Notes under the pieces: model-generated
Seen by the model: only the letters and a program-made list of their open reading frames with translations
What the model was told of the DNA's origin: nothing
The model's database searches: none
Assembly: GCA_002368355.1 (NCBI GenBank)
Contig: AP018281.1
Coordinates: 2,108,001-2,172,000, forward strand
From: Chondrocystis sp. NIES-4102
GTDB lineage: Bacteria > Cyanobacteriota > Cyanobacteriia > Cyanobacteriales > Xenococcaceae
Direction: 5' to 3'
Length of the DNA stretch: 64,000 bases
Part shown: one piece after another, positions 15,541-61,078 of the stretch
Layout: every line of letters begins with the position of its first letter
How positions within the stretch are numbered: the first letter of the stretch is position 1
Made by a program: the position numbers and the translations under genes

Positions 15541-15660
15541 ATCGGTTTTAATGAGGATCAGTCATTAAACGTAAGGGGGAAAGCCCAGTGAAAATCTGGC
15601 ACTGTCCCGCAACTGTGAAGAAGTTTGTCTTAAGACTCAAAAGTCAGAATGCCCACCGAT
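15541..15660 (+). promoter_or_regulatory. Cobalamin (AdoCbl-type) riboswitch
   Basis: The conserved cobalamin aptamer core is readable. There is a purine-rich AAGGGGGAAAGCCCAGTGAAA, then ATCTGGCACTGTCCCGCAACTGTGA, then the B12 box AGTCAGAATGCC at 15642-15653. The closing stem P1 pairs ATCGGT (15541-15546) with ACCGAT (15655-15660). It lies 290 bases before hupE on the same strand, so it probably represses hupE, and perhaps the GTPase behind it, when B12 is abundant. The expression platform between 15661 and 15950 was not resolved. Confidence 0.93.
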
Positions 15661-15950
15661 TTTGCAAGTCAGATCAATATCCTATCTGCGAGGTACAGAT
15701 TGTGTTAATTTTACAAAATGAGAATTATAGTTGTTTTATATCTACTCTACGAACAGTTAGTTTTTTAAAGTATTTATACAATCAATCAATCAAGTAATTG
15801 AGATTTCCTAATTAGTTTTCTATTTCAAAGCAAGTTAATCTATCACACCGTGCAAATTGGTCTAGGAAAAGATAATTATGCTGGGTGTAGAAGATCTAAT
15901 ACTGCTGTATTGAATTACATTGTGTCTAGTTTTCAGCGAATATAAATAAT

Positions 15951-16610: not shown

Positions 16611-16669
16611 GTTTAGCCTCCGCAGCAGCATGGCAATATCTATCTAATCAATTTTACTATTTATATATA

Positions 16670-40446: not shown

Positions 40447-41223
40447 CTAATTGGAGCTTTCGGCTAATTCAATCACTTGTTTAATTGCCTGCTTAGTTTC
40501 CTCAATAGATTCATGGGGGGTTATATGTCCTCCTTTGACTATTTTAGTCGGGATATGGGGAATTGTACCTACATAATCGGATTCTCCCACTACAGCTAAG
40601 GCAGGGACTTGTAATTGATTGAGAATCTGGGTTATGTCTGTCGTATTAAGGATGACTGCATCAATCAAACGTTCTATTTCTTTGGCTGGTCTTTTTGATA
40701 GTCTTTTACCCATAGCCACGGCTAATTCAGGTCGTTTACTTAAAATTTCCTCGGAATAAAGAGATTTAGCAGCCTGCTGTCCATAAAATTCTGGAAACAT
40801 TAAAATAAATTTTTGCATAGTAAATCCTAATCTATCCAAACCTGCTGTTCTTTTAAAGGGCATATTAAATAGCCCCAAAGCTGCAAAACGTTCAGGAAAC
40901 TTATAGGCTGTACGTACTGCGGTCATACTTCCCCAAGAATGAGCGATCGCAATACATTTTTGGATACCGAGATTGTCTAAGATTTGTAATAGCATAGTAA
41001 CGCAATCATCCAGATTCCAATCCTGATCGATATTGCTGCTATCTCCATGACTAGGCATATCTAGGTAGATGTGGGTTTTACCCGTTATATTACTACCGTA
41101 ATCAGCCCAAAGACTTTTATCAAGATATAGACCGTGCATAAATACAATAGGTGGATCAGTATCCTGTTGCTCAATTTCTAAAGCTATTTCACCCAGGTTA
41201 GTAAGAACTTTTTTTCTCAGCAT
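40447..41223 (-). CDS. Alpha/beta hydrolase
   Basis: 258 residues of the alpha/beta hydrolase fold. The oxyanion segment VFMHGLYLDKSLW is near the start, the nucleophile elbow AHSWGSM carries Ser, and a late GGHITPHE supplies the catalytic His. Esterase, lipase or C-C hydrolase activity is possible; substrate unknown. It reads away from the polyketide operon, with 575 bases between the two starts, so it may be unrelated or share a control region. Confidence 0.88.
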   Translation of the reverse strand: MLRKKVLTNLGEIALEIEQQDTDPPIVFMHGLYLDKSLWADYGSNITGKTHIYLDMPSHGDSSNIDQDWNLDDCVTMLLQILDNLGIQKCIAIAHSWGSMTAVRTAYKFPERFAALGLFNMPFKRTAGLDRLGFTMQKFILMFPEFYGQQAAKSLYSEEILSKRPELAVAMGKRLSKRPAKEIERLIDAVILNTTDITQILNQLQVPALAVVGESDYVGTIPHIPTKIVKGGHITPHESIEETKQAIKQVIELAESSN

Positions 41224-41798: not shown

Positions 41799-44700
41799 AT
41801 GTCTCAATCAGCCTTATCGATCGCGGTTATTGGCATTGGGTGCAATTATCCTGATGCGCAAAATTTAACAAAGCTTTGGGAAAACGTATTAAGCAGAAGA
41901 TGCCAATTTCGCCAGCTTCCTGCCCAAAGACTTCCCCTTTGGGAATATTATGACCCTGATAAAACCGTACCTGATAAAACCTATGGTAAAAAAGCTGCGG
42001 TAATTGACGGATTTCAATTTGATTGGGCAAGTCGTCGCATACCCCAAAAAACCGTATTAGCGACCGATATAGTACATTGGCTAGCTTTAGAAACTGCTGA
42101 TCAGGCGATCAAGGATGCTGGATATACCCGTGCCACTATACCCCAAGAAAAGACGGGAGTTATCTTAGGAAACACCTTAACGGGGGAACAAACCCGTGCA
42201 GGTACAATGCGTTTACGTTGGCCTTACGTCAAAAAAGCTTTATTAGCTGCGGGGCAACATAGAGGACTATCTGAGGCAGAAATGACCGCTTTAGTTACTA
42301 CCACAGAAAAATTCTACAAATCAGTATTTGCACCAGTAACAGAAGATTCCTTAGCTGGGGGTCTTTCCAATACAATAGCTGGTCGCGTTTGCAACTATTT
42401 CAATTTAGACGGTGGTGGGTATACGGTTGATGGGGCTTGTGCTTCATCCCTAATTGCTGTGGCTAATGCTTGTAGTGCTTTAATGAGTGGGGATCTAGAT
42501 ATTGCCCTAGCTGGGGGAGTTGATGTTAGCTTAGACACAATGGAGTTAATTGGCTTTGCCAAAACTGGGGCATTAACCAATGCAGACATGAAAGTTTACG
42601 ATCGCCGTGCCAGTGGTTTTATTCCTGGTGAAGGTTGTGGGTTTGTTGTCCTCAAACGCTATGAAGACGCAGAAGCTGCTGGGGATTACATATATGCAAC
42701 GATCAAGGGTTGGGGTATCTCTGCCGATGGCAAGGGTGGAATTACCGCCCCCTCAAGATTTGGACAGTCTAAGGCACTATTGAGGGCATATCAAAAGGCT
42801 GGTTATCAGGGTAAAGATATAGATTTTATCGAAGGACATGGAACAGGTACACCAGTTGGGGATCGTGAAGAATTAGAAGGTATTGCGATCGCGATTAATC
42901 ATATCTTACCTACTCAACCTCGACGGGTGGGAGTAACATCTTTTAAATCCTTATTTGGTCATACCAAAGCTGCTGCTGGCATTGGAGGTTTAATCAAAAC
43001 AATTCTGGCGGTTAACCAAAAAGTAATACCTCCCATTGCAGGGTGTCAAGAACCCAACCCTGTATTTGCAGATTCCGTAAGCTGTGCCTATCCAATTTTA
43101 ACAGGAGAAGTATGCGAACCAAAGAGAATATTACGGGCAGGGGTTTCAGCAATGGGTTTTGGCGGAATTAATACTCATATTGCCTTAGAATCAGCCAATA
43201 GCCCCAAAAAAGACCTAAAAATAGCTTTATCTCCCAGGGAATTATTAGTTTCTGCCCAAGATAGCGAACTATTTGTCTTTAGTGCTAGTTCAATTGAGCA
43301 ATTATTAGAACGCACCTATGAAGTGATTAATTTAGCTCAAGGTATCTCTATAGCCGAGATGGCTGATCTGGCTGTATTTCTAACCAAAATGGATCTGACG
43401 GGATATGTAAAAGCAGCAGTTATTGCTAGTGATCCTGAACAACTGATCAATAATCTTCAGCAATTAGAGCAAATACTCCAAGATTCTCCGCCAGTAGCTG
43501 GGGAGGTAAAAACTAATCCCTACGAGCAGATCTGGGTGGGTAATCAAGTTACTCAAAATCGCGTGGCTTTCCTCTTTCCAGGACAAGGTTCGCAAAGATT
43601 AAATACCGCCAGAACTATTGTAGAACGCTTTACTTGGGCGCAGCAACTAGTGAAACAAGCAGATCAATGGTTGCAAGAAATTGGATGTCAACCTGTTAGT
43701 CAGTTGATCTATCGCTGTCGGGAAAAAGCAGCAGATGAACAGGAATTACAACAATGGTTAACGCAACTATCAGCAAGTGCGATCGCCTATCCAGCCATTT
43801 GTTTAGCTTCCTTACTCTGGATAGAATACCTCAAAAGATTAGGCATTGAGCCAAAGGCAGTAGGGGGACATAGTTTAGGTGAACTTACCGCTTTCTATAT
43901 GGCGGGTGCTTACGATGCTAAAACCTTGATCCAATTTGCAGCCCTTCGAGGTCAAGCCTTGGCAAATTGTAAGTCAAAATCAGGCACAATGGCTAGTTTA
44001 GGTTGCGATCGCCAAACTGCCGAAAAGATTATTGCTCAAGTCCCAGGATATTTAGTAGTTGCTAATCTTAATAGTACTAATCAAACTGTTATTTCGGGAG
44101 ATAGTGATAGTATTAATCACGCCCTACAAGTGGCTGCTCAACATAATGTGCAAACTCGTAAATTGCCCGTTGCTAATGCTTTCCATTCACAATTAGTCGC
44201 TGAGGCTGCCGAATATATTAAAGTTAATGCTCCTGTTGCTGAAGATTTTATATCTGATTCCCTGTCTGTATTTTCTAGCACCAACGGCAAAATTATTAAT
44301 AGTAAAATTAAACTTAAAGAACACTTTGGCAAGCAAATTACTTCACCTGTTAATTTTGTAGAATTAGTTAAGGAAATTGACAAGCAAGTAGACTTATTTT
44401 TAGAGGTTGGTTCGGGTAAAGTTTTGTGTGGTTTGGGGAAAGAGATTATTAAGCAACAATCTAAGGTGTTCTCAACAGAAGCAAAATCTGATCTTAAAGT
44501 AAATTTTCATATATTCTTGGCTAGGTTTTTTATCAGCAATGGTAAGATAAATTGGCAAGAATTATATAGTAATAGATTAATTAGAGATTTTATTGCAACC
44601 AAAGAAAAGGTGTTTATAGAGAATCCTTGTGAACGCCAGTTTCAAGTATCCCCAGAAGAAATTGAGGATATAAATAAAATAATGCCCTTTAAAAATGAGG

Positions 44701-44864
44701 CAAGGAATTACAAACAACCTAAAGAAATAAATAATAATTCCGATGAGGTGGCGGAAATATTAACTACATATTTTCAGAATCGTAGTGACTTTTTAGCAGA
44801 ACTAATTAAAGCAGATCTAGAAAATTTACCCTATTTTTTCAATAATGAATCCAAATTTGATTAA
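41799..44864 (+). CDS. Enediyne-type iterative polyketide synthase, KS-AT protein
   Basis: 1021 residues. A ketosynthase (~5-460) has Cys214 in DGACASSL, His347 in EGHGTGTPVGD and His388 in FGHTKAAAG. An acyltransferase (~585-880) has Ser692 in GGHSLGE and the malonyl-type ANAFHS segment. Many KS stretches, such as GNTLTGEQTRAGTMRLRWPY and LAGGLSNTIAGRVCNYF, closely resemble the KS of enediyne PKSs (SgcE/PksE) more than modular PKSs. The heterocyst glycolipid HglC/HglE type is the other relative. The last ~25 residues form a helix (YFQNRSDFLAELIKADL) repeated at the start of the next protein, which overlaps by 20 bases. It should load malonyl-CoA and condense iteratively with the ACPs of the partner. 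Confidence 0.92.
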   Translation: MSQSALSIAVIGIGCNYPDAQNLTKLWENVLSRRCQFRQLPAQRLPLWEYYDPDKTVPDKTYGKKAAVIDGFQFDWASRRIPQKTVLATDIVHWLALETADQAIKDAGYTRATIPQEKTGVILGNTLTGEQTRAGTMRLRWPYVKKALLAAGQHRGLSEAEMTALVTTTEKFYKSVFAPVTEDSLAGGLSNTIAGRVCNYFNLDGGGYTVDGACASSLIAVANACSALMSGDLDIALAGGVDVSLDTMELIGFAKTGALTNADMKVYDRRASGFIPGEGCGFVVLKRYEDAEAAGDYIYATIKGWGISADGKGGITAPSRFGQSKALLRAYQKAGYQGKDIDFIEGHGTGTPVGDREELEGIAIAINHILPTQPRRVGVTSFKSLFGHTKAAAGIGGLIKTILAVNQKVIPPIAGCQEPNPVFADSVSCAYPILTGEVCEPKRILRAGVSAMGFGGINTHIALESANSPKKDLKIALSPRELLVSAQDSELFVFSASSIEQLLERTYEVINLAQGISIAEMADLAVFLTKMDLTGYVKAAVIASDPEQLINNLQQLEQILQDSPPVAGEVKTNPYEQIWVGNQVTQNRVAFLFPGQGSQRLNTARTIVERFTWAQQLVKQADQWLQEIGCQPVSQLIYRCREKAADEQELQQWLTQLSASAIAYPAICLASLLWIEYLKRLGIEPKAVGGHSLGELTAFYMAGAYDAKTLIQFAALRGQALANCKSKSGTMASLGCDRQTAEKIIAQVPGYLVVANLNSTNQTVISGDSDSINHALQVAAQHNVQTRKLPVANAFHSQLVAEAAEYIKVNAPVAEDFISDSLSVFSSTNGKIINSKIKLKEHFGKQITSPVNFVELVKEIDKQVDLFLEVGSGKVLCGLGKEIIKQQSKVFSTEAKSDLKVNFHIFLARFFISNGKINWQELYSNRLIRDFIATKEKVFIENPCERQFQVSPEEIEDINKIMPFKNEARNYKQPKEINNNSDEVAEILTTYFQNRSDFLAELIKADLENLPYFFNNESKFD

Positions 44865-47800
44865 TCATAAGGCTAATGGTTTAGATAATAATGACCCAGA
44901 TAATGACCAGTCAATAGTTAAATTATTATCCTTCTACTTCCAACAACGAGGCGCATTTCTAGCACAAGTAATTAAAGCAGATTTAACTAGTTCTAATTAT
45001 GGCAAGCAATTAAACCAGTCTGCCGTTAGTTTGTTGCCGACCTTTCCCCAAGTACAGAAGTATAAGCCAAGTAATGGTAATGGTTATAGTAATGGCAACG
45101 GGAAGGTAACTATCGAACCAAAACCAGAACCCATTATCGCGCCGAATACCAAAAATAAAAATGATCATGATGTTCAAACCCTACTGATCAATTTAATTGT
45201 TGAGCAAACAGGATACCCAAAAGACACCATTTCTGGGGAATTACGTTTACTTGATGACTTAAACCTAGATTCAATTAAAGCAGGAGAATTAATCGCCACT
45301 GCTGCTCAAAAATTGGGGGTTGCGGGAAAATTAGAACCCTCTAGTTTAGCCAATGCAACTATTAAAGAAATTACCAAAGCGATCGCCTCAGAATTAGTTG
45401 ATCCCAAGGTAGAAGTAAATAGCAATTCTCCAGCAGCAATAGATGTTACCCAACTACTATTAGATTTAGTTGCCACACAGACAGGCTTTCCCTTAGCCTC
45501 ATTAGATGCAGATTTAAAGCTTTTAGACGACTTAAACCTAGATTCCATCAAAGCAGGAGAACTAGTAGCCACTGCTGCTCAAAAATTAGGGGTTGGGGGA
45601 CAAGTAGAACCTGCTAGTTTAGCCAACGCAACCATTAAAGAAATAGCCCAGGTATTAGAATTACTCAACTTACCCAATAATAAGAAAGATCAGCCATTAA
45701 ATAAACCCGTAGTTATTGCCGAGTCTACAACTAATTGGGTGCGTAACTTCAAACTTGAATATATAAATCAAGCAAAAAATAATGTTGAAGTTGAAAATTG
45801 GTCTATTGCCAAGGTTTTAATAGTTTGCCAAAGCCCTAATAATTCCTTAGTTAGCAGTTTAAAAACACAACTACAAGAACAACAAGCCCAAGTATTAGTT
45901 GTTACTTATCAAGATCTAAAAGGGGAGTTAACAGGATACACCCATTATTTTGCTTTCCTACCTGAAGTTGCCGAAGACGATTCTAATTTATCGTTAGAGT
46001 CAATGACTACCAGGTTAAAAAGTATTGCCACTGCACCTAAAAATTCCTGTATTACCTATATACAATTTGGTGGTGGTAAATTCGGTACAAATGCTCAAAA
46101 TATCCACCCAGAAGTTTGCAATGCTGCTGCTTTTGCTCGTAGTGTGCATTTAGAACGAAATGATTTAAAAGTTAGGGTAATTGATCTAGATCCTCAGATC
46201 AAACCTGATCAGGCTTCACAACTAATTTTGCAAGAAATACCTGGTACTGAAACAATTGTAACTGTCGGATACGACCTAGATTTAAATCGTTGGCTACCCC
46301 AATCTCAAATAGTACAGCCTGTTGAATACCAACCTCGTAAACATAATTGGACTGCGGAGGATGTCATTTTAGTCACGGGAGGAGCAAAAGGGATCACCGC
46401 CGAATGTGCCTTAGCCCTAGCCCAAGAAACTCAAGTTAAAATGGCTCTAGTTGGTCGAGGTAAAGATATTACGGGGGAAATTGCCCAAACCCTAGAAAGA
46501 TTTGAGCAGCAAGGATTGACTTGTAGATATTATGGTTGCGATGTTGCGGATGGGTTAGCAGTAGAGCAATTAGTAGCAACGGTTAATGCAGAATTAGGGA
46601 ATATTACAGGAATAATTCACGGTGCAGGACTTAATACCCCTCGTCGGGTAGAACAAGTAACCTTAGAAGCAGCCCAAAAAGAAGCCTCTCCCAAACTTTT
46701 AGGGGCGTATAACCTGCTGCAAGCATTAAAACAACCAATAAAAATTTTTACAGCTTTTAGTTCAATCATCGGTGTAACTGGAATGGCTGGGAATAGCTGG
46801 TATGCCTTTGCTAATGAATCCTTAGCCTTACTATTAAATCGCTGGCAACAACAACACCCAGAAAGTGATGTAATTTCCCTAGCCTATAGCGTTTGGAGTG
46901 AAGTAGGAATGGGAGCGCGCTTAGGAAGTATTAAACATTTAGCACGTCTAGGTATTGAAGCCATTCCACCCCAAGCAGGGATAGAACGCTTTATAGGACT
47001 ATTTAAAGGAGATCCTGGTGTTGGGCAAATAATTATAGCTGCCCGTTTAGGGGGTTTAGATACCTGGCATCCCCAAAATATCAGTTTAAATAAACCACTG
47101 CGTTTTATCGAACAAGTAGAATATATCGAACCTGGGGTAGAAACAAAAATTATCGCCGATCTAAACATAAAGCGCGATCGCTATATAGGGGATCATATTT
47201 GGCGTGGTTCATATCTCTTTCCTACCGTCTTTGGGTTAGAAGCAATGGCACAGGCTACCGCCTACGTTTTAGGTGATGCCCAACCCCAGATAGTCAGGAT
47301 CGAAAATATTTCTTTGCGTCGTCCTGTAGTAGTTAACCCTCAAACAGGCACAAAAATACAAATTCACGCAGAAGTATTAGAACTAGATGCAGCAGGGGAA
47401 ATTAAAGTAAAAGTTGGCATAAGTTCCCAACAGTCAAATTATACTGCCGATTGTTTTAGTGCAGAACTTATAGTAGGTAAACGCAGCCAGCAAACCCAAA
47501 GATCACTAGTAGAAATAGGATCGGCTTTAGATATCCAACCACAACAAGACTTATACGGAGGTTTACTATTTCAAGGGGAATTATTCCAACGCCTAGAAAA
47601 AATATATTCCCTCTCAAGAGAGTTAAGTATTCTTAGCGTTACCACTCGCCCAGCAACAGAATTAACTAACGAAGGGTTTGGTGAAGGTTTAGGGGGACAT
47701 CTAATCTTAGGAGATGCCTACTATCGAGATGTGCTGCTGCAATGTATGCAGGTTAATATTCCCCAGGATATCTGCTTACCAGTCCAAATAGACTGTATAC

Positions 47801-49764
47801 AATTTAATTACGATCCTAGTTACGAATGTGGCGAAAGAATTCTACAGGCAATTTTACACAAACTAGAAGGGAGAGAATACCTGTGTGAAGTAATAGCCAC
47901 CGATAAAAAAGGCATAATTCGCGAAAGAATCCAAGGTTATCGACTGCGTATACTAGAAGAACATCCAGAAAATCCCACCGCACAACAACTTGCTAACCCC
48001 GAAAGTCGCGATCGCGCCCTGCTCCATTCAGCCATTACCAAGGCTTATGAACAATTTGCGCTGATTCCTAATACAGTTGAACTAGCATATCTACCCAAAA
48101 TAGGTTATAAAGACAAAAAACAACGTCGCCAACTAGAAAAACCTTTAATTACTGCTGCTTTAGCTCAACATTTACAAGTGCCAACAGCAATTAATTATAG
48201 ACTTAAAACCTTAGCCAATGGTAAACCCCAAATAACAGTTCAAGACTATCCAGAAATAGATCTTTCCCTTTCCCACGACCAACAATATTGCTTGTGTACA
48301 GTGGGGATGGGGGCGCAAGGGTGCGATATCGAAATCCAGAGCGATCGCTCGGCTACAGATTGGTTAGCCTTACTTAGTAATAAACATTCCTCCATAGTCG
48401 AAGAGTTAATCACCCAGGGAGATGACCGCAACTGTGCTGGGACTCGCATTTGGTCAGCAACGGAAGCAGTACGCAAAGCTTTTAACGGTACTAACCCCAA
48501 ATTTTCCCTAGTTAAACATCAGGGTACAACTGCACTACTAAAAGCCGAAACCGAAATAGGCAGACATTTAGTTTTAACCCTAAGTTTACAATTCACCCGC
48601 CCAAGCAAACGAGTCGTTGCCTTAGTAGTTCAACCCCAGGGAAAGGATGACCTCAATTTAGCCTCTGCCACCATAGAACAAATGGTAGATACAATCATCC
48701 AACCCCACCATCATCGAGTCGAAATAACTAATGATGGACCCCAAGGTCAAAGAGTTTATCTACAGAGGTTTCAGGTTTCCTTCCGCCAAGCCTGTAGCAT
48801 CAGCCGTAATGTCCCAGTCTCACAATATATCGGTTGGGTTGGTAAGTTTCGCGAAATTCCCATGATTAGTATGGCTCAACCCATGCTACGAGACTTCTAT
48901 AGTGGTCAATATGGCATGGTGACTAATGATGTAACCCTACGCATTTTGGGGGATGTTACCACCTATGACACCATTCAAGGGCGTTGCTGGTTGGGAAATC
49001 TCAAAAATTCCTCCTTCGATACCTATATCGAGTTTTGTAAAGTATTAGCGGATCACTCCCTAGTTCGAGTGGCAATGGCAGAGGTTAAAGCCACTTGGGT
49101 AAAACTTCTAAAATATGGTGTTCCTGCTCCCGAAGCCCTACCCGATTATTTAGCCAACTATCTCAGTCTGTTTACCGTTGATCAACCAGCCAGCATCGAT
49201 TTAAAAAATGCTCCGACGATCAGCTTACCCAAATTACCCGAACCCAACGCCTCCCTAGACCCTGGAGAGGTACTATATCAAGCTACCCCCAGTCCCAAAC
49301 GCCAAGATCTCCTCTTTTCTAAAAGCTATCAAACTACTTTAGAAGAAGCCAATGCGGTGGGTAATGTCTACTACGGTAACTACTTTATCTGGCAGGGAAG
49401 AACCTTAGATTTCTTCTTCTATCAATTCATTCCCGAATACTTCCGTGTAGAACAAGCCAAAGGAGAAGTTCTATCAGTATATAGTCGTATGACTTACCTT
49501 AAAGAGGCGATGCCTTTCGATACCATTTTGACCAATCTCTATGTAGATGAAGTCACAGAATGCGGAGCGGAGTTTACATTCCAATTCTTCCGTCAAACCG
49601 CCAATGGTGAACTAGAAAAACTACACAGTGGAGTACAAAAAGTAGTGTGGGCAACCAGACAGACAGATGGTAGAGCGATCGCCAGCCCTTGGCCCCAACC
49701 AGTGTTAAAAGCATTGCTCCAAGCTGCTCGATCTCCCGAAGTTACTTATGCCTTGGCTAGGTGA
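44845..49764 (+). CDS. Enediyne-type iterative PKS partner: ACP-ACP-KR-DH-PPTase-hot-dog-hot-dog
   Basis: 1639 residues. Helix YFQQRGAFLAQVIKADL (~30-48); two ACPs with Ser143 and Ser234 in LNLDSIKAGEL; ketoreductase with TGGAKGIT at 511-518 and Ser639/Tyr653; PKSE-type dehydratase with His784 and Asp957; phosphopantetheinyl transferase with GCDIE (1159-1163) and WSATEAVRKA (1203-1212). Two hot-dog domains follow (~1300-1440, ~1480-1625). The second, with NAVGNVYYGNYFIWQGR, looks like E10, the enediyne thioesterase that releases polyenes. PKSE normally ends at the PPTase with E10 as a separate gene, and KS-AT is normally in the same chain, so this is a rearranged version. The chain should self-activate its ACPs and produce a polyene. 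Confidence 0.92.
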   Translation: MNPNLINHKANGLDNNDPDNDQSIVKLLSFYFQQRGAFLAQVIKADLTSSNYGKQLNQSAVSLLPTFPQVQKYKPSNGNGYSNGNGKVTIEPKPEPIIAPNTKNKNDHDVQTLLINLIVEQTGYPKDTISGELRLLDDLNLDSIKAGELIATAAQKLGVAGKLEPSSLANATIKEITKAIASELVDPKVEVNSNSPAAIDVTQLLLDLVATQTGFPLASLDADLKLLDDLNLDSIKAGELVATAAQKLGVGGQVEPASLANATIKEIAQVLELLNLPNNKKDQPLNKPVVIAESTTNWVRNFKLEYINQAKNNVEVENWSIAKVLIVCQSPNNSLVSSLKTQLQEQQAQVLVVTYQDLKGELTGYTHYFAFLPEVAEDDSNLSLESMTTRLKSIATAPKNSCITYIQFGGGKFGTNAQNIHPEVCNAAAFARSVHLERNDLKVRVIDLDPQIKPDQASQLILQEIPGTETIVTVGYDLDLNRWLPQSQIVQPVEYQPRKHNWTAEDVILVTGGAKGITAECALALAQETQVKMALVGRGKDITGEIAQTLERFEQQGLTCRYYGCDVADGLAVEQLVATVNAELGNITGIIHGAGLNTPRRVEQVTLEAAQKEASPKLLGAYNLLQALKQPIKIFTAFSSIIGVTGMAGNSWYAFANESLALLLNRWQQQHPESDVISLAYSVWSEVGMGARLGSIKHLARLGIEAIPPQAGIERFIGLFKGDPGVGQIIIAARLGGLDTWHPQNISLNKPLRFIEQVEYIEPGVETKIIADLNIKRDRYIGDHIWRGSYLFPTVFGLEAMAQATAYVLGDAQPQIVRIENISLRRPVVVNPQTGTKIQIHAEVLELDAAGEIKVKVGISSQQSNYTADCFSAELIVGKRSQQTQRSLVEIGSALDIQPQQDLYGGLLFQGELFQRLEKIYSLSRELSILSVTTRPATELTNEGFGEGLGGHLILGDAYYRDVLLQCMQVNIPQDICLPVQIDCIQFNYDPSYECGERILQAILHKLEGREYLCEVIATDKKGIIRERIQGYRLRILEEHPENPTAQQLANPESRDRALLHSAITKAYEQFALIPNTVELAYLPKIGYKDKKQRRQLEKPLITAALAQHLQVPTAINYRLKTLANGKPQITVQDYPEIDLSLSHDQQYCLCTVGMGAQGCDIEIQSDRSATDWLALLSNKHSSIVEELITQGDDRNCAGTRIWSATEAVRKAFNGTNPKFSLVKHQGTTALLKAETEIGRHLVLTLSLQFTRPSKRVVALVVQPQGKDDLNLASATIEQMVDTIIQPHHHRVEITNDGPQGQRVYLQRFQVSFRQACSISRNVPVSQYIGWVGKFREIPMISMAQPMLRDFYSGQYGMVTNDVTLRILGDVTTYDTIQGRCWLGNLKNSSFDTYIEFCKVLADHSLVRVAMAEVKATWVKLLKYGVPAPEALPDYLANYLSLFTVDQPASIDLKNAPTISLPKLPEPNASLDPGEVLYQATPSPKRQDLLFSKSYQTTLEEANAVGNVYYGNYFIWQGRTLDFFFYQFIPEYFRVEQAKGEVLSVYSRMTYLKEAMPFDTILTNLYVDEVTECGAEFTFQFFRQTANGELEKLHSGVQKVVWATRQTDGRAIASPWPQPVLKALLQAARSPEVTYALAR

Positions 49765-49806
49765 ATCTAAGATTAAAAATTTCATTAAATAAATCCCAAA
49801 TAAATA

Positions 49807-51630: not shown

Positions 51631-51642
51631 CCAAATAACAGC

Positions 51643-53436: not shown

Positions 53437-53459
53437 AGATAAATATAAAACCGATTAAT

Positions 53460-55253
53460 ATGTATACCCAACAAATAGCAGATTATGATGTGGTGATTAT
53501 GGGGGCAGGGTTTGCAGGTATTTGTCAAGCTCGACACCTGCTATTAAATATCCCAGGAATTAAAATTGCCATTATCGATCCGCGATCGCAAAATCGAGAT
53601 CATAAAGATCTTAAGATTGGTGAATCTATGGTGGAAGCAGCAGCCTTGTTTGTTTGCAAAGAACTTGGTCTGCACGAATACATGATTGAAAATCATACCC
53701 CCAAAGCAGGTTTAAACTTCCATTGGCCCAAAGATCCCGCAGCAACTAAAGATCTTGACGACTACTATCATGTCTGGTCAAATCGCCAAACAGCGATCGC
53801 CTCTTTTCACATGAATCGTGCAAAATTTGAAACCGATGTGCTGCAAATGGTTCGAGAGATGGGGGCAAGTTTCTATCATGGTCGTGTGGTGGATGTGGAT
53901 TTAACCCCAGGGGAACAACTAAATAGCGTAAAAGTTAAAATTGGTGATCAATATCACTCTCTAACTACCCATCACCTAGTAGATGCTGCGGGACAAAGTT
54001 TTATTATTGGTAAGAAAAAGGATAATTTAATTACCGAGTCGGAAAATCTTTACGGCTTAAATACAGGATCAGCTTGGGTGAGGGTTAATAACGTCGATCG
54101 CACTATCTTTGACGATGGTTATCACCCCTATCGTGCTTCTAGTAGTAGTTATTACGCCACTAATCACTATTTCGGTCAAGGTCATTGGTTATGGATGATT
54201 CCTAGTGAATTGGACTCAATGGAGTTATCCATAGGGGTAATGCACCACCACGATGTCATCCCTGCTAATACAATCAATACCAAAGAGAAATTCTACGGCT
54301 TCCTCAAAGCCAACCACACCATGCTTTATAACTTGGTTAAAAGTGGTCAGGATGTCGATTTCCACTATCGATCAAAAGTTCCCTATAAAAGTAAAGAAGT
54401 CTTTTCTCCAGATAACTGGTACGTCATTGGCGACTCTGCCTATATCTTCGATGCTTTTTATTCCTACGGCACAACCATGATTGCTTTTGCTATTGGCGGG
54501 GCGACCGAAGTAATTCGCGCCAAACTAGCTAAAGAAGCCGATGCAGCCGTTAAACAAGATGCCTACAATCGATTTAATCTGGCATATTCAGAAAACGTCA
54601 ATCATTTAATGCGCCATCACCATAAACAATTAGGTCATGCTAGCGTCATGAGTTGGCGGATTTACTTTGAATATATGTGGTGGTTTGGTATCCATGTACC
54701 AATGTTTGTCGGCAAGTGGCATCTCAACCTACAGTTTCTAGAAAAGTTTTTAGTATTGATGCCTGCCAACCAACAGGGGTTATTTGTCGATGTTTACAAT
54801 CAATTCAATCAATTAGTAGAGCGTGGGGCGAATATCGGTTTAATGGATGCCTACCGTGCCGATCAACTAATCAATAATTATAGTCCCCTCGATCACTTCG
54901 ATCACTTCCTAGAAAACTCCAAATTAGAACCCTTGCGCGTTAATATCTTTGCTGGGATGAAACACGCCTACTTTTATATAGCAATTTGGTACTTAATGTT
55001 TCAGTGGAAAGGTTTTGGAGTGGCTGGAATTGTGCATCCCAAACACATCTATCATTTTGGGCGTTTACTTAGTTTATCCCTACAAACTGCGATCGCCGAA
55101 ATTATTTACAAATCCAAAATTAAAGGACTTCCCGACAATGCGGAAATAGCCCAGATGCGCCAAGAGTTTAAAGATTATCGCTATCAACCAATGATTCAAA
55201 CACCTGATAATTCAACAACAAAATCCGCTTCTCAAGACTTAGTTAAAGTTTAG
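53460..55253 (+). CDS. FAD-dependent halogenase-like protein 3
   Basis: 597 residues, the third tandem paralog, 23 bases after protein 2. FAD motif GAGFAG, GES, Lys82 in NHTPKAGLNFHW, and WLWMIP at 243-248 are intact. The FAD-contact segment reads GDSAYIFDAFYSYG. Copies 2 and 3 look closer to each other than to copy 1 (for example NVDRTIFDDGYHP in both). The C-terminal MSWRIYFEYMWWFG and hydrophobic tail are retained. All three share the Pro-to-Ala change, so the whole set forms one divergent clade. Confidence 0.82.
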   Translation: MYTQQIADYDVVIMGAGFAGICQARHLLLNIPGIKIAIIDPRSQNRDHKDLKIGESMVEAAALFVCKELGLHEYMIENHTPKAGLNFHWPKDPAATKDLDDYYHVWSNRQTAIASFHMNRAKFETDVLQMVREMGASFYHGRVVDVDLTPGEQLNSVKVKIGDQYHSLTTHHLVDAAGQSFIIGKKKDNLITESENLYGLNTGSAWVRVNNVDRTIFDDGYHPYRASSSSYYATNHYFGQGHWLWMIPSELDSMELSIGVMHHHDVIPANTINTKEKFYGFLKANHTMLYNLVKSGQDVDFHYRSKVPYKSKEVFSPDNWYVIGDSAYIFDAFYSYGTTMIAFAIGGATEVIRAKLAKEADAAVKQDAYNRFNLAYSENVNHLMRHHHKQLGHASVMSWRIYFEYMWWFGIHVPMFVGKWHLNLQFLEKFLVLMPANQQGLFVDVYNQFNQLVERGANIGLMDAYRADQLINNYSPLDHFDHFLENSKLEPLRVNIFAGMKHAYFYIAIWYLMFQWKGFGVAGIVHPKHIYHFGRLLSLSLQTAIAEIIYKSKIKGLPDNAEIAQMRQEFKDYRYQPMIQTPDNSTTKSASQDLVKV

Positions 55254-55332
55254 AGTTTAAACCAAATCAGATCACGGGGTGGGTTATGCCCACCAAACAT
55301 CTTGTTAATCATCACAATAATTAATTTAAATC

Positions 55333-56766
55333 ATGGTCAACACTATTAATCCCACCATTGCCGAAACCCTCAGTTGGAAAAAAGCCTTTATACAATCAGC
55401 CAAGGAATTTGAGCCGACGGATTTAAAAGTTATTGAGGGTGCAATACCGCCAAACTTAACAGGTTCTTTTTACACTATAGGTCCAGGATTATTAGAAAGA
55501 AACGGCGAAACAATTGCTCACTGGTTTGATGGGGATGGGGGAATTCTCAAGGTAAATTTTACAGGGGAGACGGCAACGGCGATGTATCGTTATGTGCAAA
55601 CCGAAGCCTATCAACAGGAATCCGCAGAAGGTAAGTTTTCCTTTGGGTCTTATGGTCGTTTACCTTCAGGCTCTTTTTGGCAAAAATTGACCGTTCCGAT
55701 TAAAAATAGAGCTAATAGCGGAATTATTGCCCTAGAAAACCGTTTACTGGCTCTTTGGAACGCAGGCTCTCCCTACGTAGTTAATCCGAACAATTTAGCC
55801 ACCCAAGGAATCGATCCCAATTTTGGTACAGAGAAAGCAGAATTACCCTACTCTAGCAGTCCTAAAATAGACCCAGAAACAGGTAGGATATATAACTTTG
55901 GGATAGAATATGGCACAAAAGCCCAATTAAAACTCTACTGTAGCGATCGCACTGGCAGGATAATCCAACAAGCAGATATTCCCCTCGAAGGTTTCCCCTA
56001 TATCCATAATTTCATCTTAGCAGGACGCTATTTAGTCTTCTTTATTCCCCCCCTACGTTTAAAACTTCTACCTTTTTTAAGTAAACAAAAAAGTTTTGCC
56101 GATGCCTTAAGTTGGAAACCAGAATTAGGCACAGAGATTTTAATTATCGATCATCATACTTTTGAGGTGGTTAGTGAAGGAATTACCGCCCCTTGGTTTA
56201 GTTGGAATTACAGCAATGGGTATGTAGATCAAGTTGGTAATATAGTTATCCAAGCCGTTTGTTATCCTGATTTTGGCATTAATGAATTTTTAAAATATGT
56301 CCCTTCAAATCACCTAGCAAGTAGTAGTAAAGGTAAATTACGAGAGATAACTATTAACCCCCAAACAGGACAGGTTATAAATAACCAATCTCCCTTAAAT
56401 AATTTTTGTGAATATCCTGTAGTTGCCGAGCAAGATGTTGGTAAACCTTGGCGTTTTACCTATTTATCCGTCTACTCCCATAACAATAATGTTGCTCAAG
56501 ATCTACCAGATACAATTGCTCGTTTTGATCGCCAAACAGGAGAATTAACCACAGCTAATTTAGGCAAAAATTATTATCCTGTCTTGATGGTTCATGTTAA
56601 TAATGCAGCAGAAGATTGGCTATTAGTACAGGTATTTAATGGCAATAGTGGTAAGAGCGAAGTTTGGGTTTTTGACACCGACCAACTAGATAGTAAACCT
56701 GTTTGTAAATTAGCTTTACCTGCCCCTATCCCCTTTGGGTTTGCTGGGGTCTGGCAAGATAATTAA
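55333..56766 (+). CDS. Carotenoid-oxygenase-like protein lacking iron ligands
   Basis: 477 residues with the RPE65/CCD seven-bladed propeller pattern: GSFYTIGPGLLERNGETIAHWFDGDGG, KIDPETGRIYNFG, FPYIHNFILAGRYLVFF, DFGINEF. The fold normally holds iron with four His. Here Ser176 stands where the AHPK His should be, Asn292 where the FHHxN His should be, and Ala471 in FGFAG where FHG is the rule; only His225 remains. Oxygen-dependent cleavage of a polyene is therefore unlikely. An isomerase, a binding protein or a new chemistry should be considered. It lies 79 bases behind halogenase 3 in the operon. Confidence 0.85.
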   Translation: MVNTINPTIAETLSWKKAFIQSAKEFEPTDLKVIEGAIPPNLTGSFYTIGPGLLERNGETIAHWFDGDGGILKVNFTGETATAMYRYVQTEAYQQESAEGKFSFGSYGRLPSGSFWQKLTVPIKNRANSGIIALENRLLALWNAGSPYVVNPNNLATQGIDPNFGTEKAELPYSSSPKIDPETGRIYNFGIEYGTKAQLKLYCSDRTGRIIQQADIPLEGFPYIHNFILAGRYLVFFIPPLRLKLLPFLSKQKSFADALSWKPELGTEILIIDHHTFEVVSEGITAPWFSWNYSNGYVDQVGNIVIQAVCYPDFGINEFLKYVPSNHLASSSKGKLREITINPQTGQVINNQSPLNNFCEYPVVAEQDVGKPWRFTYLSVYSHNNNVAQDLPDTIARFDRQTGELTTANLGKNYYPVLMVHVNNAAEDWLLVQVFNGNSGKSEVWVFDTDQLDSKPVCKLALPAPIPFGFAGVWQDN

Positions 56767-56823
56767 TTCCTCTACTGCCTTTAGTTTGGTTAGTTTCTTA
56801 TTAGAATAATTCGTAGTTAAAAG

Positions 56824-57225
56824 ATGTTTGCTAAAACCTTAAAATCAACTTCCCCTATTAATCCATCCCCCTCAACGAATCAACATCTAATTATCGAACT
56901 TCACGAACTAGAGGCAGTTTTAACTAAATTAGGTTTATACCTTTCTACTGCTGAATTAAATCGCCTTTGTGGTGGTCAATTTGTAAGTTTAGAAAATCTT
57001 GCATTAGCAGATGTCGGTATTATCCTAATTTTAGCCTCGGCGATCGCTTCGCATCATTTCCAACACAAACATCTTTCCTTTAGAGACTTACTTTTATTAA
57101 GTGGAACTACGGAGTCTGTGGGCATTCCTCTATACTGTTGGGATAATAATCTTGCAGTAAAATACTACCTTCGTCTAACTTTCGTAGAAGGAGTACCTGT
57201 GATTGTTATTCAAACCCAAAATTAA
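56824..57225 (+). CDS. Orphan 133-residue protein within the polyketide operon
   Basis: 133 residues, soluble, no signal peptide. Residues ~22-110 are mostly helical with Leu/Ile-rich segments (LHELEAVLTKLGLYLSTAEL, VGIILILASAIASHHFQ). A C-terminal beta stretch (YYLRLTFVEGVPVIVIQ) follows. I do not recognise the family. Tight co-direction with the cluster (57 bases from the gene before, 33 from the gene after) makes a role in biosynthesis or export likely. The first ~20 residues are Ser/Thr/Pro-rich and disordered. Confidence 0.65.
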   Translation: MFAKTLKSTSPINPSPSTNQHLIIELHELEAVLTKLGLYLSTAELNRLCGGQFVSLENLALADVGIILILASAIASHHFQHKHLSFRDLLLLSGTTESVGIPLYCWDNNLAVKYYLRLTFVEGVPVIVIQTQN

Positions 57226-57258
57226 ATTAATTATCCAGTAGATAGAAAAATTCGCCCT

Positions 57259-58638
57259 ATGAATAATAATCCACCTAATCTACAAAATAATAAAAAAATT
57301 AATTATCAATATAGACCCCAGTCAAGGCAGCAAGCCATAATTCTCGATGTTAAAACTAGTCTGCTATTGATGGCTTTGGCTCTGACTACTTTGGGTTTCA
57401 CTTCCTACTATACCCTTAAAAATAGCAACATTATTAGTAATTATCAGGCTAAAACTTCAACAGCACCAAAAACAATTACTACAGCTAATACTAATTTAAA
57501 TAATAGGGTAGCAGCCATCGGTTATATCCAAACCAAACAAGATCCCATTAATCTATCCGCCACTACTTTTGTTGAGGGCGCAAGGGTACAAGAATTACTA
57601 GTAAAACGCACAGATCAAGTAAAAGTTGGTCAAATCATTGCCATTCTCGATAATCGCGATCGCCTTTTAGCTGCCTATAATCAAGCTCAAAAACAAGTCA
57701 CTGTAGCAAACGCTCGTCTACAACAAGTTCAAGCAGGGGCGAAAACAGGCGAAATTCAAGCACAAAAAGCTAAATTTCAAGCAACTGAGGCAGAATTACA
57801 AGGACAGATCGATACTCAAAAAGCTGCGATCGCTAACCTCAACGCCCAATTGGCAGGGCAAACTAACGCCCAAAAAGCCACTATTAACCGACTCAAAGCA
57901 GAAGTTGAAAATGCGACAAAGGAATGTCAACGCTACAAACAGTTGTCCGTGGGAGGGGCGATATCTGCCTCGGAAAAAGATAGTATTTGTCTTAAGCAAA
58001 CCACCTCGCAAGATCAACTGCTAGAAGCTAATGTCAACTTACAAAGAATTACTAATACTTTGGGCGAACAAATCAATGAAGCTAAAAGTAATCTTCAACG
58101 TACTATTAATACCTTAGATCAGCAAATCATCGAAGCTCAATCTAGTTTAGAAGCGGTGGCAGAAGTACGGGATGTAGATGTGGCGGTGGCTATGTCTGAA
58201 TTAGAAACGGCAAAATCGGCGGTAAGTAAGGCGGAGGCGGAATTAGATTTAGCTTATGTTCGTTCTCCTATTGATGGTCAAATTCTACAAATTAATACTT
58301 GGGCTGGCGAGACAATTAATAATACCAAAGGGATCGTTACTTTGGGTGATACCGCCAATATGTATGTGGTGGCAGAAGTATATGAAACTGATATAAATAA
58401 AATAAAAATAGGTCAACAAGCAACTATTGATAGTGGTGGGATTACTAGTAAATTAACAGGTACAGTCGAAGAAATAGGATTACAAATTGGCACGAAAGAT
58501 GTCTTGGGTACTGACCCAGTAGCTGATGCTGATGCGCGGGTGGTGGAAGTAAAAATCCGTTTAACTCCTGAAGCTAGTAAGCAAGTGACGGCTCTTACTA
58601 ATTTACAAGTTAACGTAATTATTAATACTAATAGTTAA
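57259..58638 (+). CDS. HlyD/DevB-type periplasmic adaptor subunit
   Basis: 459 residues. One N-terminal helix (SLLLMALALTTLGFTSYY), a lipoyl half with IQTKQDPINLSATTF, a long coiled coil rich in Ala/Gln (~140-325), the second lipoyl half (VRSPIDGQILQINTWAGETI) and a beta-barrel region. This is the DevB-type adaptor of DevBCA exporters, which in Anabaena export heterocyst glycolipids through TolC. It is followed by the DevC-type and DevA-type genes in the usual B-C-A order. The outer-membrane channel must be encoded elsewhere. Confidence 0.9.
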   Translation: MNNNPPNLQNNKKINYQYRPQSRQQAIILDVKTSLLLMALALTTLGFTSYYTLKNSNIISNYQAKTSTAPKTITTANTNLNNRVAAIGYIQTKQDPINLSATTFVEGARVQELLVKRTDQVKVGQIIAILDNRDRLLAAYNQAQKQVTVANARLQQVQAGAKTGEIQAQKAKFQATEAELQGQIDTQKAAIANLNAQLAGQTNAQKATINRLKAEVENATKECQRYKQLSVGGAISASEKDSICLKQTTSQDQLLEANVNLQRITNTLGEQINEAKSNLQRTINTLDQQIIEAQSSLEAVAEVRDVDVAVAMSELETAKSAVSKAEAELDLAYVRSPIDGQILQINTWAGETINNTKGIVTLGDTANMYVVAEVYETDINKIKIGQQATIDSGGITSKLTGTVEEIGLQIGTKDVLGTDPVADADARVVEVKIRLTPEASKQVTALTNLQVNVIINTNS

Positions 58639-58653
58639 ACTCAATATAATAAA

Positions 58654-59826
58654 ATGTTTAATAAATTATTTACAGCTTGGCTACAACTAAAATATCAAAA
58701 AATACGTCTAATTTTGGCATTGTCAGGGGTAATTTTTGCCGTCGTAATTGTTTTTATGCAGTTAGGTATTAGAGATGCCCTATTTGATAGTGCAGTGCGC
58801 TTTCATAAGAGTTTAGATGGCGACTGTTTTATAATAAGCCCTCGTTCCACTTCCTTAATTGCTATGGAAAATTTCCCCAACAGACGTTTAGCCCAAGCAT
58901 TAGCTTTTGAAGAAGTAGACCATGTTAGCCCCATTTATCTAGACTTCGCCCAGTGGAAAAATCCTGAATCTAGGAAATACTGGCGCAATATCTTTGTAAT
59001 TGGGTTCGATTTACGAGATCAAGTATTTACTTTACCTGGGGTGAATGAAAACCGTCAAAAATTACAATTACCCGATACTATTTTATTTGATCGCAGTTCT
59101 CGAACAGAATTTGGGCCTATCGCGCAACAATTTACCACCTACGGCAAAGCCAAGACAGAAATAGGTAGTAATAGCGGTTCAAATCGTCGGGTAGATGTAG
59201 TAGGACTATTTGATTTAGGCACTTCCTTTGGTTCGGATGGCAATATAATTACTAGTGAAGTCAACTTTTTAAGACTGGTTGATACAAGGGCTAAAGGCAG
59301 AATTGATGTAGGTTTAATTAAACTTACTCCAGGTACAGATCCCAATCAATTTAAACAAAAACTAGTCCAAAAATTACCGCGAGATATCAAAATTCTAACC
59401 AAACAAGAATTTATCCAATTTGAAAAGAAATATTGGCAAAGTAGCACAGCGATCGGGTTTATCTTCAATTTAGGAGTATTTCTGGGGTTAATTGTCGGGG
59501 TGGTGGTAGTTTACCAAATCCTTTATACCAATGTGTCGGATCATTTACCACAATACGCTACTTTAAAAGCGATCGGTTACACCCAAAATTATCTACTCTC
59601 TATCGTATTTCAACAGGCTTTATTTATTGGGGCTTTAGGATATTTACCAGGGTTAATAATTAGTATTATTCAATATCAATTTGCAGCCAAAATGACTTTA
59701 TTACCAATCATTATGACTTGGCAAAGAGCAGTATTTGTACTTGTTACCACATTGATAATGTGCCTGATTTCGGGATTTTCCGCTATGAATAAATTAAAAT
59801 CTGCCAACCCTGCTGACGTATTTTAA
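58654..59826 (+). CDS. DevC/FtsX-type ABC permease
   Basis: 390 residues with the MacB/FtsX topology: one N-terminal helix (LALSGVIFAVVIVFMQLG), a large periplasmic domain (~45-260), and three helices at the C-terminal end (AIGFIFNLGVFLGLIVGVVVVYQ and the following). Typical of DevC, the permease that forms the inner-membrane part of DevBCA. Located 15 bases after the adaptor and 4 bases before the ATPase, so the three proteins are expressed together. Confidence 0.9.
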   Translation: MFNKLFTAWLQLKYQKIRLILALSGVIFAVVIVFMQLGIRDALFDSAVRFHKSLDGDCFIISPRSTSLIAMENFPNRRLAQALAFEEVDHVSPIYLDFAQWKNPESRKYWRNIFVIGFDLRDQVFTLPGVNENRQKLQLPDTILFDRSSRTEFGPIAQQFTTYGKAKTEIGSNSGSNRRVDVVGLFDLGTSFGSDGNIITSEVNFLRLVDTRAKGRIDVGLIKLTPGTDPNQFKQKLVQKLPRDIKILTKQEFIQFEKKYWQSSTAIGFIFNLGVFLGLIVGVVVVYQILYTNVSDHLPQYATLKAIGYTQNYLLSIVFQQALFIGALGYLPGLIISIIQYQFAAKMTLLPIIMTWQRAVFVLVTTLIMCLISGFSAMNKLKSANPADVF

Positions 59827-59830
59827 AACC

Positions 59831-61078
59831 ATGAAACCAGTAATTATAGAACACTTAAATCATTATTTCGGTAAGGATAGATTAACAAAACAAGTCTTAT
59901 TTGATATCAATTTAGAGATTAGACCTGGGGAAATAGTTATTATGACTGGCCCATCTGGTTCGGGTAAAACCACCCTCTTAAGCCTTCTGGGGGGATTAAG
60001 AAGAGTTCAAACAGGTAGCCTTAAAACCCTAGGTCAAGAGTTATTTTTAGCTAAAGAAACAGATCTAGTTAATATTCGACGCAACATTGGTTATATATTT
60101 CAAGCCCATAATTTGCTGCCTTTTATGACCGCACAGCAAAATGTACAGATGTCCTTAGAATTAAACCCTAAGATCAATTCCCGTCAAGCAGCTAAAATTG
60201 CTGCCCAGATGCTTGGGGATGTGGGTTTACAAGAGCGAATCAAATACTTTCCTGAAAAACTATCGGGGGGACAAAAACAAAGAGTAGCGATCGCTAGGGC
60301 ATTAGCTCCCAGACCAAGATTAGTTTTAGCCGATGAACCTACTGCTGCACTAGATAGTAAAACTGGGCGAGAAATCGTTAATATCATGCACCGTTTGGTA
60401 AAAGAGCAAAATACAACCATTCTCTTAGTTACCCATGATAACAGAATATTAGATATTGCCGATCGCATTATTCATATGGAAGATGGGCGTTTAGTTCATA
60501 CAGAAAAAAGGTTCGAGGAAAAACAAATGTTTAATCTCAAACCCAGTCAAACTAAATCCCGTGGGCAATATGCCTCCCTATTACCTACGATGACCCAAGC
60601 CAATGGCAATCATCATTCATCAGCTACCACTCTTAATCGTCAGACAAGCCTAGGAAAAACCCCACAGTCTGTGATTAAAAAGACAATTGAACCCCCAAGT
60701 AAACAGCATCAGGGTCGTACCTACAAGATAGTTTGCATTGACGATAGCACTACAATTCTAAAATCCTTAGAACAATACTTGGATAATGAAATGTTTAACG
60801 TCACCACCATTAATAATCCCATCAATGCCCTAGTAGAAACTATCAAAAACGAACCTGATATTGTTTTATTAGATGTAATGATGCCCGATATTAATGGTTA
60901 TGAATTTTGTACCTTATTACGTCAAAACCAAAAATTCAAAGATACACCTGTAATAATGATCACTAGTTTAGATAACAATAGCGATCGCACTCAAGCTAAA
61001 GTAAGTGGTGCTACGGATTACCTAGTTAAACCCTTTAATAAAACCGATTTACTCAAGATGTTATTTAAGTTTTTGTAA
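59831..61078 (+). CDS. DevA-type ABC ATPase fused to a response-regulator receiver domain
   Basis: 415 residues. Residues ~1-225 are the DevA/LolD-type ATPase with Walker A GPSGSGKTT, signature LSGGQKQRVAIARAL, Walker B LVLADEPTAALD and the H-loop VTHD. A ~70-residue Ser/Thr/Gln-rich linker leads to a complete CheY-like receiver (~297-415) with the acidic pair Asp304-Asp305, phospho-acceptor Asp348 in LLDVMMP, Ser in ITS and Lys400 in LVKPF. All residues needed for phosphorylation are present. This puts an export ATPase under possible His-kinase control; ordinary DevA is ~220-250 residues without a receiver. No kinase gene is adjacent. Confidence 0.93.
   Translation: MKPVIIEHLNHYFGKDRLTKQVLFDINLEIRPGEIVIMTGPSGSGKTTLLSLLGGLRRVQTGSLKTLGQELFLAKETDLVNIRRNIGYIFQAHNLLPFMTAQQNVQMSLELNPKINSRQAAKIAAQMLGDVGLQERIKYFPEKLSGGQKQRVAIARALAPRPRLVLADEPTAALDSKTGREIVNIMHRLVKEQNTTILLVTHDNRILDIADRIIHMEDGRLVHTEKRFEEKQMFNLKPSQTKSRGQYASLLPTMTQANGNHHSSATTLNRQTSLGKTPQSVIKKTIEPPSKQHQGRTYKIVCIDDSTTILKSLEQYLDNEMFNVTTINNPINALVETIKNEPDIVLLDVMMPDINGYEFCTLLRQNQKFKDTPVIMITSLDNNSDRTQAKVSGATDYLVKPFNKTDLLKMLFKFL

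Follow-up and report, generated by a model that had tools for sequence, protein, structure and literature searches.

The present analysis concerns a window of 64,000 nucleotides from the cyanobacterium Chondrocystis sp. NIES-4102 (assembly GCA_002368355.1, contig AP018281.1, positions 2,108,001 to 2,172,000 of the forward strand; host genome of 5.0 Mb in 7 contigs), and in particular the ten genes, P0001 to P0010, that occupy positions 41799-61078 of this window. All ten open reading frames (ORFs) lie on the plus strand with intergenic gaps of -20, 42, 12, 23, 79, 57, 33, 15 and 4 bp, which confirms the ten-gene, one-strand unit described in an initial annotation of the locus. Pfam and NCBIfam searches assign to the genes, in order, a ketosynthase-acyltransferase (KS-AT) protein, a protein with two acyl carrier protein (ACP) domains, ketoreductase (KR), dehydratase (DH) and thioesterase (TE), three Trp_halogenase-like proteins, an RPE65 protein of the carotenoid cleavage dioxygenase (CCD) type, an orphan, and DevB, DevC and DevA. 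Operon layout, domain homologies, retention or loss of motifs and synteny were all read from the sequence. Scans for promoters and terminators of the operon gave no excess over shuffled sequence. The association of these genes goes beyond chance, because the gene set and its order recur in other cyanobacteria.

The initial annotation spoke of a single synthase with the chemistry of an enediyne-type iterative polyketide synthase (PKSE) and its E10 thioesterase; this predicted chemistry was supported, and the synthase turned out to be two ORFs, with the PKSE split after the AT domain and an E10-like thioesterase fused to the second ORF. P0001 (41799-44864), the KS-AT half, is 39% identical over 1000 residues to SgcE, the PKSE of C-1027, and has the motifs GACAS at residue 212, HGTGT at 347, GHTK at 387 and GHSLGE at 690. 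Residues 197-1212 of P0002 (44845-49764) are colinear with SgcE 940-1878 at 28% identity and span ACP, KR, DH and a C-terminal stretch, which we take to correspond to the phosphopantetheinyl transferase of PKSEs and on which the Pfam ACPS match is below cut-off. The hotdog thioesterase at the C-terminus of P0002 matches CalE7 (1e-11), the ACP-polyene thioesterase 4i4j and DynE7. Its likeness to E10 is 25% over 134 aa at 49315-49716, the one such stretch detected in the window; SgcE10-like stretches stand in tandem pairs at eight related loci (L026-L031, L033 and L080). The motifs of KS, AT, both ACPs, KR, DH and TE are all present in P0001 and P0002, and we assume that they have the catalytic meaning assigned to them. 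Enediyne cores are the products for which PKSEs are mainly known.

In a KS-AT tree of 27 rows, 15 cyanobacterial rows from 14 genomes form a clade (support 99/99) adjoining SgcE, Streptomyces NBC_00846, S. clavuligerus and one cyanobacterium (G078). These 19 rows are joined at 100/100 apart from eight other polyketide synthase (PKS) rows, which include Beijerinckia, Persicobacter and Crocosphaera; the tree holds no hgl or named pfa sequences, is rooted at its midpoint and has long branches meeting at the root, for which the tool issued a warning. Three of 29 hits with at most 330 aligned query residues were dropped (the N-terminal pieces of G022 and G149 and one Tolypothrix piece), and the two KS-AT pieces of Phormidium tenue were kept as separate rows. 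Domain order, colinearity with SgcE and this tree identify P0001 and P0002 as a predicted split PKSE from a cyanobacterial clade that is sister to the true enediyne PKSEs.

Downstream of the synthase, P0003 (49807-51630), P0004 (51643-53436) and P0005 (53460-55253) encode FAD halogenase-like proteins, which match Pfam Trp_halogenase above its cut-off and no NCBIfam halogenase model above its own. Their best solved profile matches are the halogenases PltA, ChlB4, 8zop, 5buk and CmlS, and PltA, ChlB4 and CmlS are among the best matches of P0004. We take GxGxxG, the catalytic-lysine region and WxWxIP to be the signatures of flavin-dependent halogenases, and an alignment to PltA was made. GxGxxG, the PK lysine and WxWxIP are intact in all three window copies (GAGIAG, PKAG and WIWMIP in P0003; WMWMIP and K83 in P0004; WLWMIP and PKAG in P0005), which upholds the earlier description of three halogenase-like flavoenzymes. 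In a halogenase tree of 40 rows, 39 extend as far as the lysine and every one of these has it, and 32 of 39 have strict WxWxIP; the seven exceptions, from G097, G402 and G387, have I replaced by L, F or M. The tree retains all 37 hits from its 17 input loci, a set that leaves out L036 and L054 as well as the distant L012-L014. P0003 (orthogroup A) groups with the first halogenase of the Gloeothece cluster (99/97), P0005 (orthogroup C) with Phormidesmis and the third Gloeothece halogenase (100/99), and P0004 (orthogroup B) with Phormidesmis (100/99) and less surely with the second Gloeothece halogenase (83/98). By this tree the three proteins are long-separated paralogues, and three orthogroups would fit three positions or three steps. 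Hydropathy of the C-terminal part of the halogenases gave no convincing transmembrane helix (best 1.5).

Halogenase genes of this family were also met in other settings. The second halogenase of a genome of the same genus (G402; L062, 12471-14338) lies in two ORFs and is either broken or mis-sequenced. On a contig of a Crocosphaera metagenome-assembled genome (MAG; L034, 9029-10882), a halogenase-family gene stands between a PKS that groups by its KS with Persicobacter and Beijerinckia and two modular-type PKSs, a locus perhaps akin to the hybrids of polyunsaturated fatty acid (PUFA) synthase, PKS and nonribosomal peptide synthetase with a tryptophan halogenase described in PMC13291983. A marine Deltaproteobacteria MAG (L035, 9968-11878) has a 49% identical halogenase and no match to the PKS of the operon within 21.7 kb.

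P0006 (55333-56766) belongs to RPE65 (PF03055, 5e-103), a family that also takes in Synechocystis ACO. Within it, the protein falls in the CCD family common among cyanobacteria, to whose members it is 38-47% identical (43-44% to the paralogue in its own genome at G000:C1:2306259-2307674, which has four iron histidines); P0006-family matches at E<=1e-40 occur in 177 of 386 genomes of the phylum. It differs from these CCDs in the replacement of iron ligands: at the positions where ACO has its iron histidines, P0006 has S, H, N and A (H183S, H304N and H484A, with H238 kept), and among the acids E150 is N, E426 is gapped and E370 is kept. The ACO row was chain 5kjb, which has D at 150 where chain 5kk0 has E and may be an engineered variant. 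All four histidines are kept in 13 family members, in the more distant CCD of L051, in ACO and in the CCDs of the clusters of three relatives (G191, G382 and G278), and three of the four in the CCD of the Gloeothece cluster (H, H, R, H, with S at E426). P0006 and the Gloeothece protein pair as sisters at 99/99. Their branches measure 0.81 and 0.46, where the median is 0.18, and the tool flags the place of P0006 as unsure owing to its branch length; L037, which is P0006 read a second time, was taken out of this tree. Outside the iron site, P0006 keeps 93 of 125 invariant columns, compared with 125 of 125-144 in family members (leave-one-out), and so appears diverged throughout, though not a wreck. 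The protein is thus CCD-like, as initially annotated, with a broken iron site and with iron-dependent cleavage probably lost, and a role as a polyene-binding pseudo-oxygenase is weakly to moderately suggested. The CCDs of G191, G382 and G278 are only 25-27% identical to P0006 and are separated from it at 100/100; because they represent another lineage, CCD folds have joined PKSE clusters at least twice. A CCD-like match on a Calothrix plasmid does not lie inside such a cluster.

The 133-aa product of P0007 (56824-57225) is conserved between the halogenases and DevB, with homologues of 33-38% identity at six related loci (L028, L029, L030, L031, L033 and L080). It has no Pfam or NCBIfam match at 0.001 and no clear PDB match, which agrees with its initial description as an orphan; weak profile matches to calmodulin and EF-hand proteins (best E 0.012) were taken as chance. 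The exporter announced by the initial annotation is complete, since all three parts exceed their NCBIfam cut-offs: the DevB-type membrane fusion protein P0008 (57259-58638; TIGR02971, 296 bits, cut-off 129), the DevC permease P0009 (58654-59826; TIGR01185, 511 bits, cut-off 290) and the DevA ATPase P0010 (59831-61078; TIGR02982, 354 bits over residues 5-221). A refinement is that P0010 bears a C-terminal response-regulator receiver domain (Response_reg, residues 300-411). The DevA ORFs at nine other halogenase clusters have 223-235 aa, too short for a receiver, and those of G022 and G149 have 235 and 230 aa; a search for receiver domains found them to be common. One may speculate that this domain lets a histidine kinase gate export.

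Conserved synteny, which the initial annotation had put forward as a check, was found in Gloeothece, Microcystis, Prochloron, Nostocales LEGE 11386 and others. Twelve contig loci contain the halogenase, eight of them (L025-L031 and L033) with a synthase of the P0001/P0002 type alongside, and five of the twelve (L028, L029, L030, L031 and L033) also with P0007 and DevBCA in the same order; L028, L029 and L031 coincide with the loci of G235, G237 and G357. No such synthase was seen at L032, L035 and L036, and L034 has the other PKSs, on a set of contigs several of which end early. A counterpart with the same gene order is on plasmid Cy782201 (NC_014533.1) of Gloeothece verrucosa PCC 7822, which carries KS-AT, the second PKS gene, a small ORF, three halogenases, a carotenoid oxygenase, a P0007 homologue, extra genes and DevBCA. 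Compared with their window counterparts, the PKS proteins are 57 and 54% identical, the halogenases in gene order 66, 64 and 67% (65% between P0004 and the third Gloeothece halogenase), the CCD 51%, the P0007 homologue 35%, DevB 55% and DevC 67%. The Gloeothece cluster differs in its additional small ORF, two unknowns and an alpha/beta-hydrolase, and its CCD has lost one iron histidine where P0006 has lost three. The three Microcystis loci compared, which did not include PCC 7806, share both PKS genes, two to three halogenases, P0007 and DevBCA in order, but have no CCD-like match, an alpha/beta-hydrolase and an unknown of about 310 aa in its place, and an unfused DevA.

A search of 386 genomes of the phylum found the halogenase at E<=1e-30 in 11, of which three (G024, G042 and G095) reach just 29-32% identity, and the KS-AT at E<=1e-150 in 10, of which three (G022, G149 and G078) lack a halogenase match. 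G022 and G149 combine synthase, thioesterase and DevBCA with an enzyme that matches CrtD and carotenoid-isomerase (CRTISO) models below their cut-offs, and have no halogenase; their KS-AT is in two ORFs, and G022 has an aminotransferase ORF inside the synthase genes. In G191, G382 and G278, the PKSE is in one piece (cut by the contig end in G278). Behind it come two halogenases, which in G278 are shortened or broken, together with an aldehyde dehydrogenase, a CCD with four histidines and DUF1702 genes. An additional FAD_binding_3 enzyme is present in G382, and G191 has a similar-sized ORF in that place; neither DevB nor DevC was matched within the stretches read from these three genomes.

The cassette for C-1027 on the Streptomyces globisporus plasmid SGLP1 (L079) has the gene order DUF1702, DUF1702, CRTAC1, RnfD-like, PKSE and, further on, thioesterase, which we match to E2, E3, E4, E5, E and E10. 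It resembles the window operon in its E10-type thioesterase and in a PKSE that is colinear over the ACP-KR-DH-phosphopantetheinyl transferase region, whereas the operon has no E2/E3, E4 or E5, splits the PKSE, fuses the thioesterase and has halogenases in place of E6-E9. E3/E4/E5/E/E10 is the enediyne PKS cassette (PMC5181780), and a figure legend places DUF1702 proteins in enediyne clusters (PMC7692728). The E3-like DUF1702 profile (PF08012) has no match in the window genome or in three Microcystis genomes, whereas 6 of 10 cluster-bearing genomes have DUF1702 genes within the cluster or next to it; seven of the 386 phylum genomes have a match, six above cut-off, and four of these six (G097, G191, G278 and G382) carry the halogenase family. 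E4 (CRTAC1) was found in none of the 10 cluster-bearing genomes, that of the window included, with a single SgcE4 query that matches its own record and G078. A single-sequence query for E5 (RnfD-like) found none in the window genome, weak matches outside the clusters in four of the ten, and none at the loci scanned save three cassettes of the Streptomyces or G078 type. The scan covered the loci other than L032, L034, L035 and L036; several loci end early, and single-sequence queries may miss remote versions of E4 and E5.

The queries are nevertheless able to see cyanobacterial E3, E4 and E5, because all of them matched in G078 (L106, G078:C15:11000-30000), where E3, E4, E5, PKSE and E10 lie side by side and serve as a positive control. 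This cyanobacterium has a full canonical enediyne cassette, 40-52% identical to that of C-1027, and no halogenase-family match at 1e-30. In another genome, a strong DUF1702 gene (L107, G143:C3:2304000-2323900) is unaccompanied by any match to PKSE, E4 or E5 within 19.9 kb. A true enediyne is disfavored for the window operon, since E4 and E5 are missing while the same queries detect both in G078, and by its gene content the operon is not an enediyne cassette, as the initial annotation had argued. The claimed absence of E3, E4 and E5 held for E4 and E5, and for E3 in the window and the three Microcystis genomes, and failed for E3 in the family; of homologs beside the cluster in relatives, which the initial annotation had counted as a sign against its model, E3-like DUF1702 was seen and E4 and E5 were not.

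The kind of cluster has been known as an orphan since 2008. Frangeul et al. 2008 (PMC2442094) listed in Microcystis aeruginosa PCC 7806 an orphan cluster of 'Iterative PKS I / enediyne-type' with a PKSE-like synthase and three halogenases, and Humbert et al. 2013 (PMC3741299) gave 'PKSI iterat' as an orphan, which two of their 12 strains have in complete form. Calteau 2014 (PMC4247773) described for cyanobacteria a 'KS enediyne' clade that lies basal to the PUFA KS groups. We found no report of the product of this cluster type in the open-licence literature, by searches not all of which were aimed at the product. No description was found of a split PKSE with a fused thioesterase or of a DUF1702 mosaic lacking E4 and E5, of which only DUF1702 had an aimed search, nor of an iron-less CCD or an exchange of carotenoid-type enzymes in PKSE clusters, with no search aimed at either. 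The pseudo-CCD, the DUF1702 mosaic and the exchange of carotenoid-type enzymes would thus be the additions to the published cluster type.

We favor, with somewhat better than even confidence, the reading that the product of the operon is a linear conjugated polyene, which is halogenated and exported, and not an enediyne. Co-expression of a PKSE with a thioesterase gives a linear conjugated heptaene (PMC8725005). In the proposed pathway, P0001 and P0002 would act as an iterative PKSE whose KS-AT condenses malonyl units on the tandem ACPs, the KR and DH of P0002 would process the chain to a conjugated polyene, and release would fall to the fused hotdog thioesterase of E10 type; assembly and release by these two proteins are strongly indicated. 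P0003, P0004 and P0005 would each add a halogen electrophilically at a different position of the ACP-bound or freed polyene, and halogenation at up to three sites is moderately well indicated. P0006 would most likely bind, shield or orient the polyene instead of cleaving it, and DevBCA (P0008-P0010) would carry the product across the envelope, a role in export that we infer with moderate confidence. The polyene is made more plausible because relatives pair the PKSE with enzymes of polyene type, namely a four-histidine CCD with an aldehyde dehydrogenase, or a CrtD/CRTISO-like enzyme. The interpretation offered in the initial annotation is, as a whole, partly supported, and the role in the cell envelope that it gave the product found no direct support.

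Several points weigh against this reading. Polyene, halogenation and export are all deduced from genes, and the product structure, the part played by P0006 and the export substrate are our interpretation. WxWxIP predicts and does not prove halogenation, we know of no solved relative of P0003-P0005 that halogenates a polyene, and there is no flavin reductase among the ten operon genes. DUF1702 at six related clusters hints that some products go beyond a plain polyene. The loss of the iron site in P0006 could be part of a general drift, because the protein has diverged throughout. When the histidines are taken together with two second-shell acids, which were chosen post hoc, one of six is kept compared with 93 of 123 (Fisher p 0.006), but for the four histidines alone p is 0.06, for the Gloeothece protein it is 0.53, and the third acid, E370, is retained.

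If the three flavoenzymes instead oxygenated the PKSE polyene by epoxidation or hydroxylation, an oxygenated polyene would be exported. We regard this as unlikely: their matches to LodB, QhpG and geranylgeranyl reductase models, all below cut-off, and the extra FAD_binding_3 enzyme and aldehyde dehydrogenase of relative G382 would suit it, but the solved matches are nearly all halogenases and WxWxIP is intact in every window copy. Flavin-dependent halogenases usually act on electron-rich aromatics, which would suit a polyene that folds into an aromatic ring system before it is halogenated to an aryl polyketide. Such a product has a precedent in dynemicin, whose anthraquinone half is made via an iodoanthracene derived from a PKSE (PMC8725005); we nevertheless consider it decidedly unlikely, as family scans found no cyclase or aromatase among the ten genes and the CCD and CrtD/CRTISO-type partners suit linear polyenes.

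The same iodoanthracene could be read as a case of cryptic halogenation, in which the halogen is later eliminated to give alkynes or an enediyne-like core without E4 and E5. The sister position of the PKSE to enediyne PKSEs and the E2/E3-like DUF1702 at the cluster in six of the ten genomes speak for this, yet E4 and E5 were not found in the clusters and DUF1702 is absent from the window genome, and we hold it to be very improbable. DevBCA exports heterocyst glycolipids, and the second NCBIfam match of P0001 is omega_3_PfaA, below cut-off; both would agree with a saturated or partly reduced envelope lipid of the PUFA or heterocyst-glycolipid type. Against it, a Pfam scan found no enoyl reductase family, an E10-type thioesterase is present, and the KS-AT falls within the PKSE group (100/100), to which the rows of Beijerinckia, Persicobacter and Crocosphaera do not belong. 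In this tree, which is without hgl or named pfa sequences, the placement would also disfavor a PUFA or Hgl-type synthase as such. We give this lipid hardly any credence.

The operon is flanked upstream by a divergent alpha/beta-hydrolase gene (40447-41223, minus strand) and downstream by a convergent gene for a CPBP protease (61193-62749, minus strand). Elsewhere in the window, a cobalamin riboswitch (15526-15674, 50.5 bits) lies upstream of a HupE/UreJ-like gene and a CobW gene (15951-17716).

Beyond the halogenated polyene of the window, we tentatively propose, with clearly less than even confidence, that these clusters could define a third class of PKSE products. Around a constant PKSE-thioesterase core, mostly with DevBCA, they would form a mosaic of carotenoid-type enzymes and up to three position-specific polyene halogenases. 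The exchanged parts would be an iron-less CCD-fold binder in the window and Gloeothece, an intact CCD in G191, G382 and G278, and a CrtD/CRTISO-like enzyme in G022 and G149, with the DUF1702 clusters without E4 and E5 as intermediates to or from enediynes. A cyanobacterial sister clade that lacks E4 and E5, and in which the PKSE is paired with three halogenases and an exporter, offers a natural experiment on the fate of the PKSE polyene in the absence of warhead genes, and relatives that differ in DUF1702 offer one on the function of DUF1702 (E2/E3). If the reading of the window operon is right, it would yield flavin halogenases that act on polyenes and would show a new role for a carotenoid-oxygenase fold that has lost its iron site; the operon also provides handles on the orphan cluster of bloom-forming Microcystis noted in 2008.

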